Shown: positions 8,936-17,632 of the stretch, piece after piece | How the letters are laid out: each line of letters opens with the position of its first letter | How positions within the stretch are numbered: the first letter of the stretch is position 1 | Origin: Candidatus Cloacimonadota bacterium | GTDB lineage: Bacteria > Cloacimonadota > Cloacimonadia > Cloacimonadales > TCS61 | Direction: 5' to 3' | Length of the DNA stretch: 64,000 nt | Assembly (NCBI GenBank): GCA_030445745.1 | Contig: JASUTE010000004.1 | Coordinates: 95,149-159,148 of the forward strand | The notes under the pieces: model-generated | The model's input: only the letters and a program-made list of their open reading frames with translations | Database searches by the model: none | What the model was told of the DNA's origin: nothing | Position numbers and translations under genes: made by a program

Positions 8936-9889
8936 ATGAATGTTTTAGTAACTGGCGGTGCTGGTTTTATTGGTTCTCATTTGTGTGAAAAACTTTTGGA
9001 TGCTGGACACAGGGTCTATAATGTAGATAATTTTTGTGATTTCTATTCGCCAGATATAAAAAGAAATAATATTCAAGTAGCTCAGCAAAATCCAAATTAT
9101 AGATTGCTGGCAGGCGATATTCGTAACCAGGAATTTTTAGAAAGAATTTTTGCAGAAAATCAATTCGACATGGTAATTCACTTAGCAGCCATGGCGGGAG
9201 TTAGGCCATCTATAAAAGCTCCTCAGCTTTATACTGAGGTAAATGTAAATGGTACAGTAAACTTATTGGAATGCTGTCGCAAAAATTCCATTAAGAATTT
9301 TATCTTTGCCTCTTCCAGCTCGGTTTATGGCAATAATACCAAAATACCATTTGCCGAAACCGATGCGGTTGATTTTCCTATTTCGCCCTATGCTGCTACT
9401 AAAAAAGCGGGAGAACTTTGGTGCTATACCTACCATCATCTACACAAAATCTCTATTGCCTGTTTACGGTTTTTTACTGTCATTGGCCCGCGCCAGAGGC
9501 CTGATTTGGCATTACACAAATTTGCCAGTAGAATTGCTAACCATAAACCTATTCAGGTGTATGGTGACGGCAGTTCCAAACGAGATTATACCTACATCGA
9601 CGATATCACTGACGGAGTGCTGAAAGCGATGCAATATGTCAAAAACAATTTGGTTTACGATATTTTCAATTTAGGTGAATCGAAGAGGATAGATCTATTA
9701 CATATGATAAAGAGCTTGGAAGATGAAATGGGAATGACTGCGGAGAAAGAGTGGCTGCCTATGCAACCAGGTGATGTACAGCTTACCTATGCTGATATCG
9801 AAAAGAGTAGAAAAATTTTAGGTTACTCGCCACAATTCCCTTTTGAACTTGGTGTGAAGAAATTTGTGGAATGGTTTAACGAAAGATAA
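8936..9889 (+). CDS. NAD-dependent sugar-nucleotide epimerase (UDP-glucuronate 4-epimerase-like)
   Basis: Extended SDR family enzyme of 317 residues. The Rossmann motif GGAGFIGSH is at residues 7-15, and the catalytic Tyr-x3-Lys is YAATK after the SSSVYG serine motif. The segments MAGVRPSI and TVIGPRQRPD, the length and the C-terminal NLGE/DI.KS pattern are most like UDP-glucuronate 4-epimerases, though UDP-glucose 4-epimerase activity is possible. AAAGGAG precedes the ATG. It lies 11 bases after the D-serine dehydratase-like gene and likely closes that three-gene unit. Confidence 0.9.
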   Translation: MNVLVTGGAGFIGSHLCEKLLDAGHRVYNVDNFCDFYSPDIKRNNIQVAQQNPNYRLLAGDIRNQEFLERIFAENQFDMVIHLAAMAGVRPSIKAPQLYTEVNVNGTVNLLECCRKNSIKNFIFASSSSVYGNNTKIPFAETDAVDFPISPYAATKKAGELWCYTYHHLHKISIACLRFFTVIGPRQRPDLALHKFASRIANHKPIQVYGDGSSKRDYTYIDDITDGVLKAMQYVKNNLVYDIFNLGESKRIDLLHMIKSLEDEMGMTAEKEWLPMQPGDVQLTYADIEKSRKILGYSPQFPFELGVKKFVEWFNER

Positions 9890-9937
9890 ATTTTGGAATA
9901 AAATTTGCATTAATCATGGAAAATTCGGAGGATAAAG

Positions 9938-10504
9938 ATGAAAATAGTCAGAACAGTTATGATCTTGGTGCTAGTATTGCTTTCTGTAGCAGCATTAGCC
10001 GAACTAAAAGGAAAGGATTTTGTGGAGAAGGGTGAACTGCAAGAATTTAGCGGAAACCTAATAAAGACTGATGAAGAGTGGTCTTTACAGACAGAAGAAG
10101 CCACTTTTGATTTGCATTTTGGCCCACAGGAATATCTGCAGAGCAAAGAAGTTGTGCTGCAAGAAGATACAGAAATAAATTTAACGGGCTATTTGTATAA
10201 AAAAAATATTGCCGTTGTTAAGTTTGTTTACTATGATGTTAATGTGGTTTTGCGAAGCGATAAAGGTGATCCACTTTGGCATGGCACAAAATATGCCAAA
10301 AAACATGATAAGCATTACGTGGATTCCAGCAAATGCATTGGCTGCAAACTTTGTGTTAGTGCCTGCCCCACAGGTGCTATTAGCATGAAAGATGGCAAAG
10401 CTGTTATCGATCCGGACAAATGTATAAACTGTGGTATTTGTATAAATGGAAATGGTCAGGGGTTTTCCGGTTGTCCGGTAAAGGCTATAAACAAGAATGA
10501 ATAA
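9938..10504 (+). CDS. Exported 2[4Fe-4S] ferredoxin-like protein with N-terminal beta domain
   Basis: First gene of the exported-ferredoxin operon, 188 residues. A Sec-type signal peptide spans residues 1-21 (cleavage near ALA-E, no twin arginine). Residues 22-108 form a beta-rich domain that may be OB-like; its family is not recognised. The C-terminus carries two cluster motifs. Cys133, 136, 139 and 143 form a standard CxxCxxCxxxCP. Cys162, 165, 168 and 179 form an unusual CxxCxxC-x10-CP with a glycine-rich insertion. It probably accepts electrons from the NapH-like membrane protein, whose gene overlaps it by 8 bases, as NapG does from NapH. GGAGG precedes the start. Confidence 0.8.
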   Translation: MKIVRTVMILVLVLLSVAALAELKGKDFVEKGELQEFSGNLIKTDEEWSLQTEEATFDLHFGPQEYLQSKEVVLQEDTEINLTGYLYKKNIAVVKFVYYDVNVVLRSDKGDPLWHGTKYAKKHDKHYVDSSKCIGCKLCVSACPTGAISMKDGKAVIDPDKCINCGICINGNGQGFSGCPVKAINKNE

Positions 10505-11285
10505 ACGAGATAAAATTCGTTTTTTTAGTCAGCTTTTTTTCCTAATAGTATCGTTAACGCTCTTAGTTTTGCTAATTTTAGGATTTCTAGGAGTATCGCA
10601 CTCTTACTGTCCATTTGCCAGTGTTTGTTTTGGAATTCTGGGGCTTAGTCCTGCAGTTTCGGTTTGGTTGTTTAAAACAGCTGCTATTGTAGGAATTCTA
10701 ATAGCTTTCAGTACGGTCTTTTGGGGAAGAAAGTTTTGCGGTTATATATGTTTCTTGGGCACACTTCAGGAATTTATTTACAATTTGAACTGCAGCCGGA
10801 AAAAGTATTGTCGGAAACTGTCTTATAAAACTCATTTAATTTTAAGAGTGTTAAAGTATCTGGTACTTATCTTTACAGCAGTGACTGCTTTCTTGGCTCT
10901 ACAGTATCTATATATGAAATTTTGTCCAGTGTATGCATTAGCTCATCCCCAAAACATTAGCTTAGCAGCAGTATTTACTTTAATTGTGATATTTGTTTTG
11001 GGAGTGTGGGTCGAAAGATTTTGGTGCAGATATTTGTGCCCTTATGCAGCATTGATGAATCTATTCCAATATATGGGTAAATTGCTGGGAATTAAAAGAC
11101 AGAAAATTAGAAGAAATATTGAAGCAAGCGTGAATTGTAAAACTTGTTCAAATTATTGTCCAATGGGCATAAAAATTGAATGTAAAGAGGAGATAAGTAA
11201 TATTAACTGCATACATTGTGGTCGTTGTGTTAGAAAATGTTTGAAAGACAATTTCTCTAAAGAACAGTGTTTATACAGAGATTAA
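10497..11285 (+). CDS. NapH/YccM-like polytopic 4Fe-4S membrane protein
   Basis: A 262-residue inner-membrane protein with about five hydrophobic helices. Paired cysteines lie at the membrane edge: YCPFASVC (38, 44), CGYIC (81, 85) and CRYLCP (177, 181). The latter two are the hallmark of the NapH/NosR/RdxA group. The C-terminal domain has two cluster motifs: C214, C217, C221 with C229, and C238, C241, C244, C248. Family members take electrons from quinol, or pass them on, and hand them to a partner ferredoxin. It starts within the previous gene (ATGAATAA overlap) and sits in an operon of exported ferredoxins. It is therefore the likely point where electrons leave the membrane. No nap, nos or rnf genes are nearby. 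Confidence 0.85.
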   Translation: MNKRDKIRFFSQLFFLIVSLTLLVLLILGFLGVSHSYCPFASVCFGILGLSPAVSVWLFKTAAIVGILIAFSTVFWGRKFCGYICFLGTLQEFIYNLNCSRKKYCRKLSYKTHLILRVLKYLVLIFTAVTAFLALQYLYMKFCPVYALAHPQNISLAAVFTLIVIFVLGVWVERFWCRYLCPYAALMNLFQYMGKLLGIKRQKIRRNIEASVNCKTCSNYCPMGIKIECKEEISNINCIHCGRCVRKCLKDNFSKEQCLYRD

Positions 11286-11288
11286 ATT

Positions 11289-12254
11289 ATGAAAAAGATA
11301 CTCATATTTTTAGCGATTTTAAGTTTATTCGCTTGTGATGATTCTATTTCCAAGCTTAGTCTAGATAATACAGCTCCTAACCCGGTTTCTAATTTGCAAA
11401 TATTAGAAACGGGAGGAGATTATGTGAAGTTGATATGGAGTGTACCAGATTCCAAAGATGCTGCTTTTTACAAAATTTATAAAAAATTAAGTACGGAAAC
11501 AGAGACTATTACCAACTTTATTTTTACCGATCAACTTCAAGTTAACTTACAAAACACTCAGCAGGGTATAATTATAGACAGCTTAGCTTTCAGCAATAAT
11601 TACGATTTTGCCGTTTCGGTGTGCGATGAAAGCATGAATGAGAGCGAATTACAAAAAATAACAGGTATTGAAACGCTTAACAATAATCCTGTTGACACAA
11701 CACCTCCAGGTGATATTGCACAGCTGCAGTTGGTACCTACATTTTCGGAAGGCTATGAGATAATTGACGTAGTTATAACAGCTTCTTTTGTTGCACCAGG
11801 CGATGATGGCGATAACGGTATAACCGAGATTGAAGTAAGATATTCACCATTTGGACCAGTTAATTCAGATAACTGGCAAACCGCTTTTCCTTATCAGGGT
11901 ACAGTTTTTAGTGGTATTGCTGGAGAAACCACAATAATTGAACTTCCCTTGAAAAAATGTATGGCTCCCCCTCCCGTTCCACCCAATTATGCTTTTTATT
12001 TTGCTGCCAGAGCTATTGATGAAGCAGGAAATACTTCGGCTATCAAGAGTTTTTCTGGTAAAATAACCGCAGAAGTTATCCGTAAAAGCTGTATTTCTTG
12101 TTGGGAATGTTTAGATATTTGCCCGGAAAATGCTATCTCCAAACAAAACGGAAAGGCTTCTATCGATTTGAGCAAATGTGTGCGCTGTGGCGATTGTATT
12201 TTAACCTGTGAAGAAAAAGGTAATGAAGCAATAAAATATTATATAACAGAATAA
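11289..12254 (+). CDS. Lipoprotein with Fn3-like domains fused to a 2[4Fe-4S] ferredoxin
   Basis: A 321-residue protein with a lipoprotein signal (LFAC, Cys16). Two fibronectin type III-like modules follow, about residues 30-135 (begins APNPVSNLQIL, contains VKLIWSVP) and 137-262 (begins DTTPPGDIAQL, ends RAIDEAGNTSA). The last 57 residues are ferredoxin-like, with cysteines 268, 271, 274, 278 and 297, 300, 303, 307, spaced as in bacterial 2[4Fe-4S] ferredoxins. The second motif lacks the usual proline. I know of no common family with this arrangement. The Fn3 modules could act as a spacer or docking arm carrying the redox head across the periplasm (inference). Confidence 0.8.
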   Translation: MKKILIFLAILSLFACDDSISKLSLDNTAPNPVSNLQILETGGDYVKLIWSVPDSKDAAFYKIYKKLSTETETITNFIFTDQLQVNLQNTQQGIIIDSLAFSNNYDFAVSVCDESMNESELQKITGIETLNNNPVDTTPPGDIAQLQLVPTFSEGYEIIDVVITASFVAPGDDGDNGITEIEVRYSPFGPVNSDNWQTAFPYQGTVFSGIAGETTIIELPLKKCMAPPPVPPNYAFYFAARAIDEAGNTSAIKSFSGKITAEVIRKSCISCWECLDICPENAISKQNGKASIDLSKCVRCGDCILTCEEKGNEAIKYYITE

Positions 12255-12271
12255 AAGAGAGGTAGGAGAAG

Positions 12272-12811
12272 ATGAAAAAGAAAATAATTTACGCGATAAT
12301 TTTGCTGTTTGTAATGGCCGTAACACTATATGCTGCTAGGGTTATCTATCAAATAGACCCCGATCAGTGTAATGGTTGTGGTGAGTGTTTTGTACAATGT
12401 CCCAATGATGCTATCTATTATGATTATGAAGTATGGACTTATCAGATCAATCCAGAATTATGTGATGGTTGCGGAGATTGTGTAGATACTTGTAATCATA
12501 ATGCTATTCATGAAGTTGTTAGCAATGGCAGTGAAGAGATCGATCCTAATTTAAAGATATCTTGTTTCCCCAATCCACTTAGCTCTAATACAACTATTTC
12601 TTATGATATGCACAACGGGCAAAAAGGAGAAATAGTTATCTTTAACATCAAAGGCAGAAAAATTCGTTCTTTTCCAATAGAAAGCCGTACTGGCCAGGTC
12701 AGCTGGGATGGAAAGGATAGAGCTGGCAATGAAGTTGCAGAAGGTATTTATTTCTATAAATTGAAAACCGGCAATAGAAAAGTGATAAAAAGACTAACTG
12801 TAATAAAATGA
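12272..12811 (+). CDS. 2[4Fe-4S] ferredoxin with type IX secretion C-terminal sorting domain
   Basis: A 179-residue exported protein in three parts. The signal peptide is residues 1-21 (TLYA-A). A ferredoxin unit covers residues 24-80, with cysteines 33, 36, 39, 43 and 64, 67, 70, 74. A FlgD-Ig-like T9SS type A sorting domain covers about 95-179 (FPNPLSSNTTISY, FNIKGRKIRSF, GIYFYKLKTG, KRLTVIK). In the FCB group this tail sends proteins through T9SS to the cell surface or outside. A surface-exposed ferredoxin is therefore predicted. GGAG lies before the ATG, and the last 4 bases overlap the next gene. Function in electron transfer is inferred. Confidence 0.82.
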   Translation: MKKKIIYAIILLFVMAVTLYAARVIYQIDPDQCNGCGECFVQCPNDAIYYDYEVWTYQINPELCDGCGDCVDTCNHNAIHEVVSNGSEEIDPNLKISCFPNPLSSNTTISYDMHNGQKGEIVIFNIKGRKIRSFPIESRTGQVSWDGKDRAGNEVAEGIYFYKLKTGNRKVIKRLTVIK

Positions 12812-13050
12812 AAAAAATTAATATAATTTTAGTTTTAGTGCTGCTGCTCATTATTTCGTGTGCAGCAGCCTCTGCTGCTTATCGAGTAAATACAAACGAC
12901 TGTGTAGGTTGTAATGATTGTGTTAAAGTGTGTCCTGTAAATGCGATCTCTATCGAAGATGGAAAAGCTTATATAGACCAGGAGAAATGCATCAAATGTG
13001 GGTTGTGTTATAAAACCTGTACTTACGAAGTTATTAGGAAATCAAAATGA
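12808..13050 (+). CDS. Small exported 2[4Fe-4S] ferredoxin (probable lipoprotein)
   Basis: An 80-residue protein that is essentially a signal peptide plus a bacterial-type ferredoxin. The signal could be lipoprotein type (IISC, Cys18) or be cut after ASA at residue 23. Cluster cysteines are 32, 35, 38, 42 (CxxCxxCxxxCP) and 61, 64, 67, 71. It overlaps its neighbours on both sides by 4 bases (ATGA type), so it is translated together with them. Ferredoxins of this fold normally stay in the cytoplasm. A periplasmic or outer-membrane-anchored electron shuttle is inferred. Confidence 0.83.
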   Translation: MKKINIILVLVLLLIISCAAASAAYRVNTNDCVGCNDCVKVCPVNAISIEDGKAYIDQEKCIKCGLCYKTCTYEVIRKSK

Positions 13051-13289
13051 GAAAAATTGCTATTCTATTCTTGCTAATTGTTCTGATAGCTGTTTGGGGT
13101 TGTGAAAAAGTTAGCAATCCCCAATATCATGTAGATAAAGAATCGTGTAATGCTTGCGGAGAATGTTTAATTGTATGTCCCGTAGACGCTATTGAATTCG
13201 ACGCAGATGGTAAAGCTGTGATCGACCAAACCAAATGTAACCAATGTGGCAAATGTATAAATGTTTGCCCTCAGGATGCGATATACTAA
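13047..13289 (+). CDS. Small 2[4Fe-4S] ferredoxin lipoprotein
   Basis: An 80-residue paralogue-like companion of the preceding gene. The lipobox is AVWGC (Cys19). Clusters are Cys34, 37, 40, 44 and Cys64, 67, 70, 74, both with complete CxxCxxCxxxCP motifs, and the chain ends five residues later. The residue after the lipid cysteine is Glu, not Asp, so retention in the inner membrane by the enterobacterial rule is not indicated. Its TAA overlaps the start of the barrel gene (TAATG). It is the most canonical ferredoxin of the set. Confidence 0.85.
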   Translation: MRKIAILFLLIVLIAVWGCEKVSNPQYHVDKESCNACGECLIVCPVDAIEFDADGKAVIDQTKCNQCGKCINVCPQDAIY

Positions 13290-14485
13290 TGAAAAAATTG
13301 TTTTTATTGCTTATAGTTTTATATGCTGTAACCGTACAAGCTCAGCTATCCAGTTATACCGATATCAGTTTTCGCTATATTAATACCGATTCCAGTAGTG
13401 AATTTTTTACCGATCCCAATGATTCAGAGGTGAAAAAGGCTAGTGGCTACTCGGGTATGGATTGGGAATATCATCTTAACTACAAGTTCAACAAAAATTT
13501 ATTTCTTACATGGAATAATCAGCTTTTTTATTCTGAAGTATCGTCAGAGTTACGCAATTCCTTCCTATACGATAAAAGCCGCTTGAGTATAGGTTTTCGA
13601 AATTCTGTTCACAAACTTTCACTTTTTCTGAATAACAGGTTTTATGGAGATGATGATACCACGATCTCGAATATTGCCGGCTTAGATACTTTGATTAAAA
13701 AAAGAGCCACCTTTGCTTATGGCTTAAACTATGAGCTGAATTTCGGGAAACTAGAATTTGCTACTTCCGGTTACTATAGAAATTTGCGCTACTTAGAATA
13801 CACAACCAGTCAAAATGAATGGGAAAATGATCTCTACTTAGCTAGTAAGCTCGGTTACCAGATTATACCACACTGGCAAATTTTCACCAATTTCTACTAT
13901 AAAGATGACCTAAACCAGGTGGATTGGTACGACCAGACTAAATGGGGGGCAGGAGTTGCCTACGAAAATAGATTTGACTTTTTCAACTCTGTAGAAGCAG
14001 TGGTGAATTATTTTCATAGCGAAACAGATGAGTTGCCCCAATATCAGAATGACTATCTTTTCACCAAAGTTCGCTATTTCAAAAGATTTGGCACAACTTT
14101 CAGTAGCTTTATAACTTATATAAATCGTAGTACCTACAACACTTCCCAAGAAAAACTCTTGCGGATCTCTAATTTAATAAGACTGCAGGCAAAATATATT
14201 TATCAAGAAGGCAGAGCAGAATCTTCTTATCTACTGTTTTCCGGAAAATATAATCCAGAGAATTCTGGCAGTAAGTTACGCTTGGGTGTGAACCAGCATT
14301 TATTTAAAGACCTCTATTTTGGTATAGCTGGTGAGTATGCACCAGACCTGTACAATGGTTATGAAGGAGAATTCCGATATTTACTTAGCGGATTTCGCTA
14401 TCTCTACCTGCGCTATCAACTGCGGGATTACCAGGATTTTGTTGGTACTCAGAAGATTCAGGCAGGCCTTTCTTACCAGTTTTAA
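13289..14485 (+). CDS. Predicted outer-membrane beta-barrel protein of the ferredoxin operon
   Basis: A 398-residue protein with a signal peptide (cleavage near VQAQ-L). The rest is a regular alternation of aromatic-rich strands (FYKLKT-like, YYRNLRYLEY, FRYLYLRYQL), ending in AGLSYQF. A terminal Phe with alternating hydrophobics is typical of outer-membrane barrels. Roughly 16-18 strands could fit by length; this is not counted rigorously. No family is recognised. The ATG at 13289 overlaps the previous stop by one base; an upstream frame extension to 13244 has no support. As last gene of the operon it could be the pore or sheath through which electrons pass, as MtrB does for MtrA/MtrC (analogy only). 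Confidence 0.75.
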   Translation: MKKLFLLLIVLYAVTVQAQLSSYTDISFRYINTDSSSEFFTDPNDSEVKKASGYSGMDWEYHLNYKFNKNLFLTWNNQLFYSEVSSELRNSFLYDKSRLSIGFRNSVHKLSLFLNNRFYGDDDTTISNIAGLDTLIKKRATFAYGLNYELNFGKLEFATSGYYRNLRYLEYTTSQNEWENDLYLASKLGYQIIPHWQIFTNFYYKDDLNQVDWYDQTKWGAGVAYENRFDFFNSVEAVVNYFHSETDELPQYQNDYLFTKVRYFKRFGTTFSSFITYINRSTYNTSQEKLLRISNLIRLQAKYIYQEGRAESSYLLFSGKYNPENSGSKLRLGVNQHLFKDLYFGIAGEYAPDLYNGYEGEFRYLLSGFRYLYLRYQLRDYQDFVGTQKIQAGLSYQF

Positions 14486-14492
14486 TTTAATT

Positions 14493-14507
14493 TGAGAATC
14501 ATTCGCA
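14493..14507 (+). promoter_or_regulatory. Fur-box-like operator 1, before fur
   Basis: TGAGAATCATTCGCA is a 7-1-7 near-palindrome matching 11 of the 14 arm positions of the classical Fur consensus TGATAATNATTATCA. It lies 9 bases upstream of a TTGACA -35 and belongs to a set of three similar sites in this region. Confidence 0.6.
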
Positions 14508-15005: not shown

Positions 15006-15020
15006 TGAGAATGAATTGCA
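15006..15020 (+). promoter_or_regulatory. Fur-box-like operator 2, before feoB
   Basis: TGAGAATGAATTGCA shares TGAGAAT and the terminal GCA with operators 1 and 3. It sits in the 55-base fur-feoB gap, 25 bases before the feoB start. Confidence 0.55.
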
Positions 15021-15044: not shown

Positions 15045-17282
15045 TTGAAAAAATATACAATAGCATTAGCAGGAAATCCCAATTGTGGTAAAACTACCCT
15101 GTTCAACGCTTTTACCGGTTCCAAACAAAGGGTAGGCAACTGGCCAGGTGTAACTGTAGAAAAAATTATCGGTAACTATAAATATAAAGATGCTGAATAT
15201 GAAATTATCGACTTGCCTGGAATATATTCCTTTTCAGCACATTCGATGGACGAAACAGTATCCCGAGAGTTTATCTTGATGGAGAAACCAGACTTAGTAG
15301 TGAACATTATAGATGCTACTAACCTGGAAAGAACACTCTATCTTACTACCCAGCTTCTGGAAATGAAGATTCCAGTTATTATCGCGCTGAATATGATGGA
15401 TATGGCTAAACAGCGGCGGATAAAGATAGAGCTGGATCATTTAGCCAAGCACCTTGATACAAAAATAATATCTATTGTAGCACCCAAAAAACAAGGTCTG
15501 GATGAATTAAAACAACAAATTGCTGAAAGTGTAGAAAAACAACATATTCCTCATACCCAGGTGGAATACGATTCCGTGGTAGAAACAGCTATAAATGAGA
15601 TAGCTCCGCAGTTAGATAAATATGCCAAAAAATATCAAGTAGATAAACGCTGGCTAGCTATCAAACTGTTGGAAGAGGACAAGTTAGCTGCTCAGCTTAC
15701 CAATTCCGACTTAGCAGATCTAGTAAATCAGCAGATCCAGAAAATAGAAAAACATACTAATAACGATGTGGAAATTGTAATTGCAGATGGACGCTATGGT
15801 TTTATTCATGGATTAACTTTGGATGTGGTTCATAAAGCTGGTGATGCTCGGCGTAATTTTTCCGATCTGGTAGATAGTATCGTATTAAATCGTGTTTTGA
15901 GCATTCCCATATTTTTGGGAGTGATGTATCTGGTATTTATGCTAACAATAAATGTGGGTTCTCCCTTCATAGATTTTTTTGATAATTTAATGGGCACTAT
16001 TTTTGTGGATGGTACAGAGTACTTTTTACAAAGTCTTAATGCTCCAGCATGGCTTATTTTACTACTGGCACAAGCTTTAGGAGGTAGCATTCAAACAATT
16101 TCCACCTTTATTCCTCCTATTTTCTTTATGTTTCTATCGCTTTCCATTTTAGAAGATTCGGGTTATATGAGCAGGGCTGCTTTTGTGATGGACAGGTTTA
16201 TGCGCTTCATTGGCCTCCCGGGAAAAGCATTTATTCCAATGTTGGTGGGTTTCGGTTGCAATGTTCCAGCAATAATGGCAACCAGGACACTGGAAAATAA
16301 AAAAGATAGACTCTTAACTATTCTAATTAACCCATTAATGTCCTGCGGTGCCAGATTACCTGTTTATACACTTTTCGCAGCAGTATTTTTCCCTGAACAT
16401 GGAGGACAGGTAATTTTTGCACTCTATCTCACTGGTATTGTCTTAGCTATAATATTCGGGCTAATTTTCAAGAAAACTCTTTTCAAAGGCGAAACTTCTA
16501 CATTTGTTATGGAACTATCACCTTATCACCTACCAACTTTCAACGGAATTATGTTACATACCTGGCAACGTCTGAAAGGTTTTATCATCAGAGCTGGGAA
16601 AGTAATCGTAATTTTTATAATTATATTAACTGTGTTAAATTCGGTGGGAATAGATGGAAGTTTGGGCAATCAGGATTCAGAGAATTCTGTGTTAAGCTAC
16701 ATTGGGAAAAAGATTAGTCCGATTTTCCAACCAATGGGAGTACAGCAGAAAAATTGGCCAGCAGTAGTTGGTATGATGACGGGTATTTTTGCTAAAGAAA
16801 CAGTGGTAGGAACGCTGGATGCACTTTATTCGCAACTGGCTGGAGCTCAGCAGCAAGTAGAAGAAGAAACCGGTTACGATTTTACCTCGGGTATAGTTGC
16901 TTCTTTTCGGGCTATAGCTACTGGATTTGGTATAATAGAAGCTAAAGATGGAGAAACTACTCTACAAAAGGGTGTTACCAGAGAAATGATGAACAGATTT
17001 GGTGGAAAGAATAATGCTTTTGCCTATCTGCTATTTATACTTATTTATGCTCCCTGTGTGGCTGTAATCGGCGCTATTTACAAGGAAACAAACCTGAAAT
17101 GGACATTTTTTTCTGTTTCCTATTTAACCATGTTGGCATGGTTGGTAGCCACTTTGTTTTACCAAGTTTCGATAATTGCGATACAACCTGCTGTAAGTTT
17201 GGGTTGGATTCTGGGAATTAGCTTGATTTTCTTTGGATTCTATAAAACACTACAAAAGATAAAACCAGGTGAAACTTTTTGA
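15045..17282 (+). CDS. feoB: Ferrous iron transporter FeoB
   Basis: A 745-residue GTP-gated Fe2+ permease. The N-terminal G domain has G1 GNPNCGKTT (residues 8-16), the DLPG of G3 and NMMD of G4. A helical region follows, then the membrane domain from about residue 280, with the two Gate regions including GFGCNVPAIMATR and the later APCVAVIGA. The start codon is TTG, supported by GAGAGG six bases upstream and by the conserved MKKYTIALAGNPN beginning. The stop codon overlaps the next Fur-box-like site. It works with the FeoA-like and FeoC-like proteins encoded just after it. Anaerobic life is implied, since the substrate is ferrous iron. Confidence 0.97.
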   Translation: MKKYTIALAGNPNCGKTTLFNAFTGSKQRVGNWPGVTVEKIIGNYKYKDAEYEIIDLPGIYSFSAHSMDETVSREFILMEKPDLVVNIIDATNLERTLYLTTQLLEMKIPVIIALNMMDMAKQRRIKIELDHLAKHLDTKIISIVAPKKQGLDELKQQIAESVEKQHIPHTQVEYDSVVETAINEIAPQLDKYAKKYQVDKRWLAIKLLEEDKLAAQLTNSDLADLVNQQIQKIEKHTNNDVEIVIADGRYGFIHGLTLDVVHKAGDARRNFSDLVDSIVLNRVLSIPIFLGVMYLVFMLTINVGSPFIDFFDNLMGTIFVDGTEYFLQSLNAPAWLILLLAQALGGSIQTISTFIPPIFFMFLSLSILEDSGYMSRAAFVMDRFMRFIGLPGKAFIPMLVGFGCNVPAIMATRTLENKKDRLLTILINPLMSCGARLPVYTLFAAVFFPEHGGQVIFALYLTGIVLAIIFGLIFKKTLFKGETSTFVMELSPYHLPTFNGIMLHTWQRLKGFIIRAGKVIVIFIIILTVLNSVGIDGSLGNQDSENSVLSYIGKKISPIFQPMGVQQKNWPAVVGMMTGIFAKETVVGTLDALYSQLAGAQQQVEEETGYDFTSGIVASFRAIATGFGIIEAKDGETTLQKGVTREMMNRFGGKNNAFAYLLFILIYAPCVAVIGAIYKETNLKWTFFSVSYLTMLAWLVATLFYQVSIIAIQPAVSLGWILGISLIFFGFYKTLQKIKPGETF

Positions 17283-17294
17283 GAATGATTTGCA
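17280..17294 (+). promoter_or_regulatory. Fur-box-like operator 3, overlapping the feoB stop, before feoA
   Basis: TGAGAATGATTTGCA begins with the feoB TGA stop codon itself. It is 45 bases upstream of feoA and suggests separate iron control of feoA-feoC. Confidence 0.55.
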
Positions 17295-17338: not shown

Positions 17339-17632
17339 TTGTTTGGAAGAAAAAAAAGACGAAGAGCTAAAGGGAAACGTTGTAAAAATCATCCGCAGTG
17401 CAACCGTGGGAGCAATAATAATAGATTTTTAAATCTGTGTGAAGCCGAAGTTGGTAGAAAATATGTGGTAGTGGATAATCCAGATCACAAAATAATGGAG
17501 ATGGGTGTTTTTAATGGCTGTGTTATCACTGTACACAAAAATAACCCAAGTGATAGTAATATAATTATAGCGGTAGGTGAATCTCGGTTCATAATTCCCA
17601 AGCCAACTGCTTGCCGCATTTTGATACGCTAA
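17339..17632 (+). CDS. feoA: FeoA-like protein with cysteine-containing N-terminal extension
   Basis: A 97-residue protein. Residues about 34-97 form the small SH3-like FeoA domain (EVGRKYVVVD, MGVFNGCVITV, ILIR end), which associates with FeoB and modulates iron transport. The start is TTG, with AAAGGA seven bases before it; no ATG exists before residue 50. The first 33 residues are highly basic and contain Cys15, His18 and Cys21 (CKNHPQC), which could bind metal. This extension is absent from standard FeoA of about 75 residues. Confidence 0.82.
   Translation: MFGRKKRRRAKGKRCKNHPQCNRGSNNNRFLNLCEAEVGRKYVVVDNPDHKIMEMGVFNGCVITVHKNNPSDSNIIIAVGESRFIIPKPTACRILIR

Follow-up and report, generated by a model that had tools for sequence, protein, structure and literature searches.

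An operon of exported ferredoxins and a predicted outer-membrane barrel in Cloacimonadota as a candidate haem-free electron conduit

Described electron conduits and the Cloacimonadota operon

To our knowledge, multihaem cytochromes are the redox carriers of the outer-membrane electron conduits described so far, and surveys for such conduits seek CxxCH proteins. In the porin-cytochrome systems MtrCAB, PioAB and Pcc, a barrel is encoded together with periplasmic and surface redox proteins. Here, we describe a seven-gene operon (g1 to g7, positions 9938-14485) in a 64,000-nucleotide stretch of a Candidatus Cloacimonadota genome (contig JASUTE010000004.1, referred to below as the window), which we compared with a set of 124 genomes of the phylum. 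The operon shows the same kind of arrangement, as an analogy of working rather than established homology of parts, but it encodes 4Fe-4S ferredoxins instead of multihaem cytochromes, lacks accompanying cytochrome-c maturation genes, and has a predicted barrel of 20 strands compared with approximately 26-28. Having the outer-membrane barrel but not the multihaem proteins that define porin-cytochrome conduits, it was not classed with them. On balance, we lean towards reading the operon as a haem-free conduit that would carry electrons across the envelope to the cell surface.

Other described systems share single features with this locus. The pairing of a NapH-like membrane protein with a periplasmic ferredoxin recalls NapGH and the NosR-type NapH modules, a parallel already drawn in an earlier note made from the sequence alone. 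The pairing stands, but the likeness to NapG is imperfect, since NapG is a Tat (twin-arginine translocation) substrate whereas g1 carries a Sec-type signal and the genome has no TatC. Additionally, g2 scores far below the NapH cut-off, no nitrate reductase accompanies it, and relatives link the NapH-like protein to a 2-oxoacid:ferredoxin oxidoreductase (KOR). CcoG (RdxA), which reduces metal, is encoded in ccoGHIS clusters with DsbD_2/SafE genes alongside. These clusters likewise bring an Fe-S membrane protein of the NapH/CcoG kind and a DsbD_2 protein into one neighbourhood; however, our operon has exported ferredoxins and a barrel, lacks a cbb3 oxidase context, and scores far below the CcoG cut-off. 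Haem-free extracellular electron transfer, as proposed here, is known from the flavin-based system of Listeria, a single-membrane cell that uses flavoproteins and has neither ferredoxins nor a barrel in that system. No exported or outer-membrane ferredoxin conduit was described in the open-access literature that we searched.

The seven genes are co-directional and tightly packed, with gaps of -8, +3, +17, -4, -4 and -1 bases (Table 1). This matches the tight cluster described in the earlier note, save that the start of g7 had been placed at 13244 and was corrected. The proteins g1, g3, g4, g5 and g6 matched Fer4 families above the Pfam cut-offs, are of the 2[4Fe-4S] type, and carry N-terminal export signals, and g2 has a 2[4Fe-4S] domain at its C-terminus in addition to two CxxxC motifs. 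Together with the barrel model of g7, these matches bear out the earlier proposal of six exported or membrane 4Fe-4S proteins and a barrel. The g1 protein combines an N-terminal OB-like domain (residues 34-104 of the AlphaFold model, for which a fold search returned an OB-fold) with a C-terminal 2[4Fe-4S] domain, modelled with low confidence, whose second cluster motif is CxxCxxC-x10-C. Several homologues of g3 are lipoproteins of about 600-1050 residues in which an array of FN3 domains is flanked at each end by a ferredoxin domain. This unusual architecture, with a long FN3 array between the 2[4Fe-4S] ferredoxins, was seen at L131 530-3691, L137 5851-8352 and L119 6431-8227.

Table 1. Features of the operon and its upstream region in the window
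Feature	Position	Strand	Evidence
g1, exported ferredoxin, predicted periplasmic	9938..10504	+	Pfam Fer4 57.7 bits
g2, NapH-like inner-membrane Fe-S protein	10497..11285	+	Fer4_5 (PF12801) 49.7 bits, gathering cut-off 22, across two stretches; TIGR02163 66.6 bits, below cut-off of 213.05
g3, lipoprotein, FN3-like region and C-terminal 2[4Fe-4S] ferredoxin	11289..12254	+	Fer4 above cut-off
g4, exported 2[4Fe-4S] ferredoxin, type A sorting tail of the type IX secretion system (T9SS), predicted cell-surface	12272..12811	+	Fer4 51.9 bits
g5, small exported 2[4Fe-4S] ferredoxin, ambiguous lipobox	12808..13050	+	Fer4 57.3 bits; conserved signal peptide and cysteines
g6, lipoprotein 2[4Fe-4S] ferredoxin, immediately 5' of barrel gene	13047..13289	+	Fer4 61.5 bits; conserved lipobox and ligands
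g7, outer-membrane beta-barrel of 20 strands (predicted), cysteine-free, ending in Phe	13289..14485	+	AlphaFold pLDDT 87.5
Weak promoter-like site 5' of g1	9876..9904	+	9/12 matches; equally frequent in shuffles

The sorting domain of g4 exceeded both applicable cut-offs (PF18962, 39.1 bits against 27; TIGR04183, 41.6 bits against 23), and the T9SS translocon gene SprA_N was found in the same genome (G000:C27, E 4e-21) and in all 70 high-quality genomes, in line with the surface routing suggested earlier for this protein. A syntenic homologue of g4 is present in L128. Of the three lipid anchors proposed earlier, those of g3 and g6 rest on clear lipoboxes, whereas that of g5 is ambiguous and most g5 homologues have no lipobox. 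As the earlier note had observed, CxxCH motifs are absent from all seven proteins, and no open reading frame (ORF) of the window has two or more. A twin-arginine motif is likewise absent from g1 to g6.

The ligand patterns of g1 and g3 to g6 match those of clostridial-type 2[4Fe-4S] ferredoxins and fit Fe-S binding, and the cysteine sets of the operon proteins give about 12 predicted clusters, in line with the earlier count. These ligands are nearly invariant across proteins at 33-65% identity, with Asp as the exception. The cluster cysteines of g1 are conserved over 14 homologues, some of which have Asp at one position; those of g5 and g6 are conserved over 22 homologues, save for Asp at CxxDxxC in two, and the g6 lipobox is conserved likewise. 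Asp at CxxDxxC serves as a [4Fe-4S] ligand in Pyrococcus ferredoxin. A second cluster motif of this form, with Asp for one cysteine ligand, was noted at L140 233-481, L141 8594-8839 and L119 5885-6412. The possibility, raised in the earlier note, that the cysteines form disulfides instead of holding clusters was weakened on several grounds. Searches of the phylum genomes returned no DsbB and no VKOR match above the cut-off; therefore, exported cysteines should stay reduced. The cysteine totals of g3 to g6 are odd, and the cysteine content of exported proteins that lack Fe-S motifs is roughly half that of cytoplasmic ones, with odd counts commoner than even, although this is a rough estimate that uses a crude signal prediction.

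The g7 structure was predicted with 20 homologues as input, and the model resembles outer-membrane barrels in the PDB (Foldseek, VIA). The sequence matched no Pfam or NCBIfam family, no PDB entry and no plasmid, and gave only a weak match to PHROGs. By simple geometry, the lumen of a 20-strand barrel measures about 25-28 angstrom, which is close to the dimensions of a single ferredoxin of 55 residues; thus, the modelled barrel could accommodate one small ferredoxin.

Conservation and export in Cloacimonadota

The genome that contains the window measures 2.04 Mb and is 99.3% complete. A profile search detected the barrel in 44 of the 124 genomes, spread over 26 genera, and the NapH-like protein in 87. 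In all 34 barrel genomes with enough flanking sequence, a short ferredoxin ORF lies immediately 5' of the barrel gene, compared with 18 of 359 control genes. The co-occurrence that the earlier note had proposed as a check is thus present. The homologues retain signal peptides and adjoin the barrel, and no sequence evidence pointed to mainly cytoplasmic or scattered homologues. The usual gene order is NapH - g1 - g3 - g5 - g6 - barrel - DsbD_2. One clade has the set in two parts, NapH-g1 at one locus and g5/g6-barrel at another, and many genomes have NapH and g1 with no detectable barrel.

The eighth gene of relatives encodes a DsbD_2 membrane protein with four invariant cysteines and lies immediately 3' of the barrel gene in 25 of 38 genomes. 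Its presence correlates with that of the barrel (Fisher p 8e-13, phylogeny ignored), and it is missing in 11 of the 44 barrel genomes. Distribution beyond the phylum was probed through this gene only, and the search returned 28 loci, 26 of them labelled Cloacimonadota, Cloacimonetes, Cloacimonadales or Ca. Tenebribacter. One of the other two is labelled Armatimonadota and matches a Cloacimonadota genome (G071). The last is a Candidatus Delongbacteria contig (L134 1-1302) with a DsbD_2 gene and, 5' of it, a possible barrel C-terminus, which may reflect misbinning or a distribution that extends past the phylum.

The cytochrome-c assembly family PF01578 was not detected in 123 of the 124 genomes, the window's among them; therefore, wires of c-type cytochromes are not an option. 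The sole assembly gene in the set (L103; G097:C124:8378-9103) is possibly a contaminant of a metagenome-assembled genome. Six of the 124 genomes have TatC, one of them with a score below the cut-off, and the window's genome is not among the six. The usual rule is that Fe-S proteins exit folded via Tat. Without Tat, that route is closed and the ferredoxins must exit via Sec, and the clusters are thus probably inserted outside the cytoplasm. We tentatively propose, at rather less than an even chance, that these proteins form a phylum-wide outer-membrane conduit in which ferredoxins are exported through Sec as unfolded apo-proteins, gain their [4Fe-4S] clusters outside the cytoplasm, and let bacteria without cytochromes or Tat exchange electrons directly with partners.

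In some Cloacimonadaceae (L084, L088 and L099), NapH-g1 follows the KOR alpha and beta genes in one operon whose genes lie a few bases apart or overlap by a few; KOR was identified by NCBIfam in L084 and by a sequence motif in the other two. This linkage suggests that the electrons come from reduced ferredoxin in the cytosol. Additionally, several near-complete genomes of the KOR-linked clade keep NapH and lack the UbiA prenyltransferase, and cytosolic ferredoxin is therefore a likelier donor than quinol in those genomes. Quinol as the sole donor is unsupported where UbiA is missing; the window's genome has UbiA, and quinol is possible there.

A putative route for electrons

We suggest a putative route across the envelope. 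Electrons from cytosolic reduced ferredoxin, supplied by 2-oxoacid:ferredoxin oxidoreductases, or from quinol would enter the NapH-like g2 in the inner membrane and pass to g1 in the periplasm. From g1 they would reach the ferredoxins g5 and g6 at or inside the g7 barrel, and then the surface ferredoxins g3, tethered by its FN3 region, and g4, attached through T9SS. These could deliver them to an extracellular acceptor, such as a syntrophic partner, humics, Fe(III) or sulfur. The clusters would probably be inserted beyond the cytoplasm, within a reducing envelope, where DsbD_2 in relatives, or DsbD in this genome, may keep the exported cysteines reduced until cluster assembly, by analogy with CcdA/DsbD and apo-cytochrome c. 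The ferredoxin conduit proposed in the earlier note is thus partly supported: synteny over many genera, the 20-strand barrel, the lack of cytochrome-c maturation and the KOR link favour it, while the conduit function itself stays putative. The DsbD_2 partner, Sec export without Tat and the KOR link had been omitted from it.

Several points weigh against a conduit. FN3 spacers are unable to conduct, and low-potential clusters would dump energy. The g7 fold is like that of generic barrels such as TonB-dependent receptors and porins, and MtrB is one of many tied matches (Mtr complex chain 6r2q_B, Z 14.7, level with unrelated barrels). The close relative G070 has NapH without the barrel or neighbouring ferredoxins, and the window's genome has DsbD in place of the DsbD_2 partner. 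Moreover, Sec-exported [4Fe-4S] proteins are, as far as we know, nearly unprecedented, and the cluster content is hence only predicted.

Cloacimonadota, which live in digesters and anoxic sediments, have been hypothesised to perform direct interspecies electron transfer, with pili named as the main conductive structure (PMC13082233, PMC7382037). A ferredoxin conduit, if real, would give these suspected partners a concrete molecular route and would escape CxxCH-based surveys. It would also mean that 4Fe-4S proteins can be exported via Sec and matured outside the cytoplasm, contrary to the Tat rule. Even with another function, we found no described family corresponding to the conserved set of exported ferredoxins with an outer-membrane barrel.

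Alternative functions and the iron neighbourhood

We weighed four other explanations. A periplasmic relay with an envelope enzyme as its end point, rather than one leading outside the cell, would suit the many genomes with NapH and g1 but no detectable barrel; we consider it quite unlikely, as the T9SS tail of g4, the FN3 arrays of g3 and the adjoining barrel point outward. Thiol or sulfur redox chemistry, in which DsbD_2 and the ferredoxins reduce extracellular polysulfide or disulfides and the barrel is a channel for sulfur compounds, draws on the invariant cysteines of the DsbD_2-like protein beside the barrel in relatives and on the sulfur metabolism inferred for Ca. Tenebribacter (PMC8542988), which carries the operon (L124). 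However, the operon contains no family with a sulfur active site, and the barrel genomes that lack DsbD_2 include this one, which leaves this explanation improbable. We give the smallest chance of all to the view that these cysteine-rich exported proteins transfer no electrons but, as apo-proteins or with another metal (Zn, Fe or Cu) bound, serve in storage, sequestration or resistance. The lack of Tat would suit it, as there is then no known export route for preformed clusters, but both CxxCxxCxxxC sets are conserved, Asp is confined to the position at which a known ferredoxin accepts it, and the genes co-occur with NapH and KOR.

The least unlikely of these alternatives, although still unlikely in our view, is assimilatory metal reduction, in which the ferredoxins would act as reductants of Fe(III), or like CcoG of Cu(II), at the outer membrane or beyond it, and Fe(II) would enter via the barrel and FeoB. 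Fur and FeoB are encoded just 3' of the operon, followed by an FeoA-like gene (17339-17632), and a synteny of NapH, Fur and FeoB is common to the window and G070. The earlier note had offered ferric reduction for FeoB as one option, and the adjacency is real. In contrast, a Fur-box-like motif, TGAGAATNANTYGCA, occurs in three identical copies ahead of fur (14493-14507), feoB (15006-15020) and feoA (17280-17294), and this motif, which was defined from these sites themselves, was not found before the operon. Among the neighbourhoods examined, Fur and FeoB lie beside NapH only in the window and a single related genus and are not beside the operon in the others, and the KOR links point to catabolism. 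The locus in G070 (L063 4997-10057) has the order FeoB-Fur-NapH-LytM as in the window, minus the intervening ferredoxin and barrel genes, and similar Fur-box-like sites occur around its fur/feoB.

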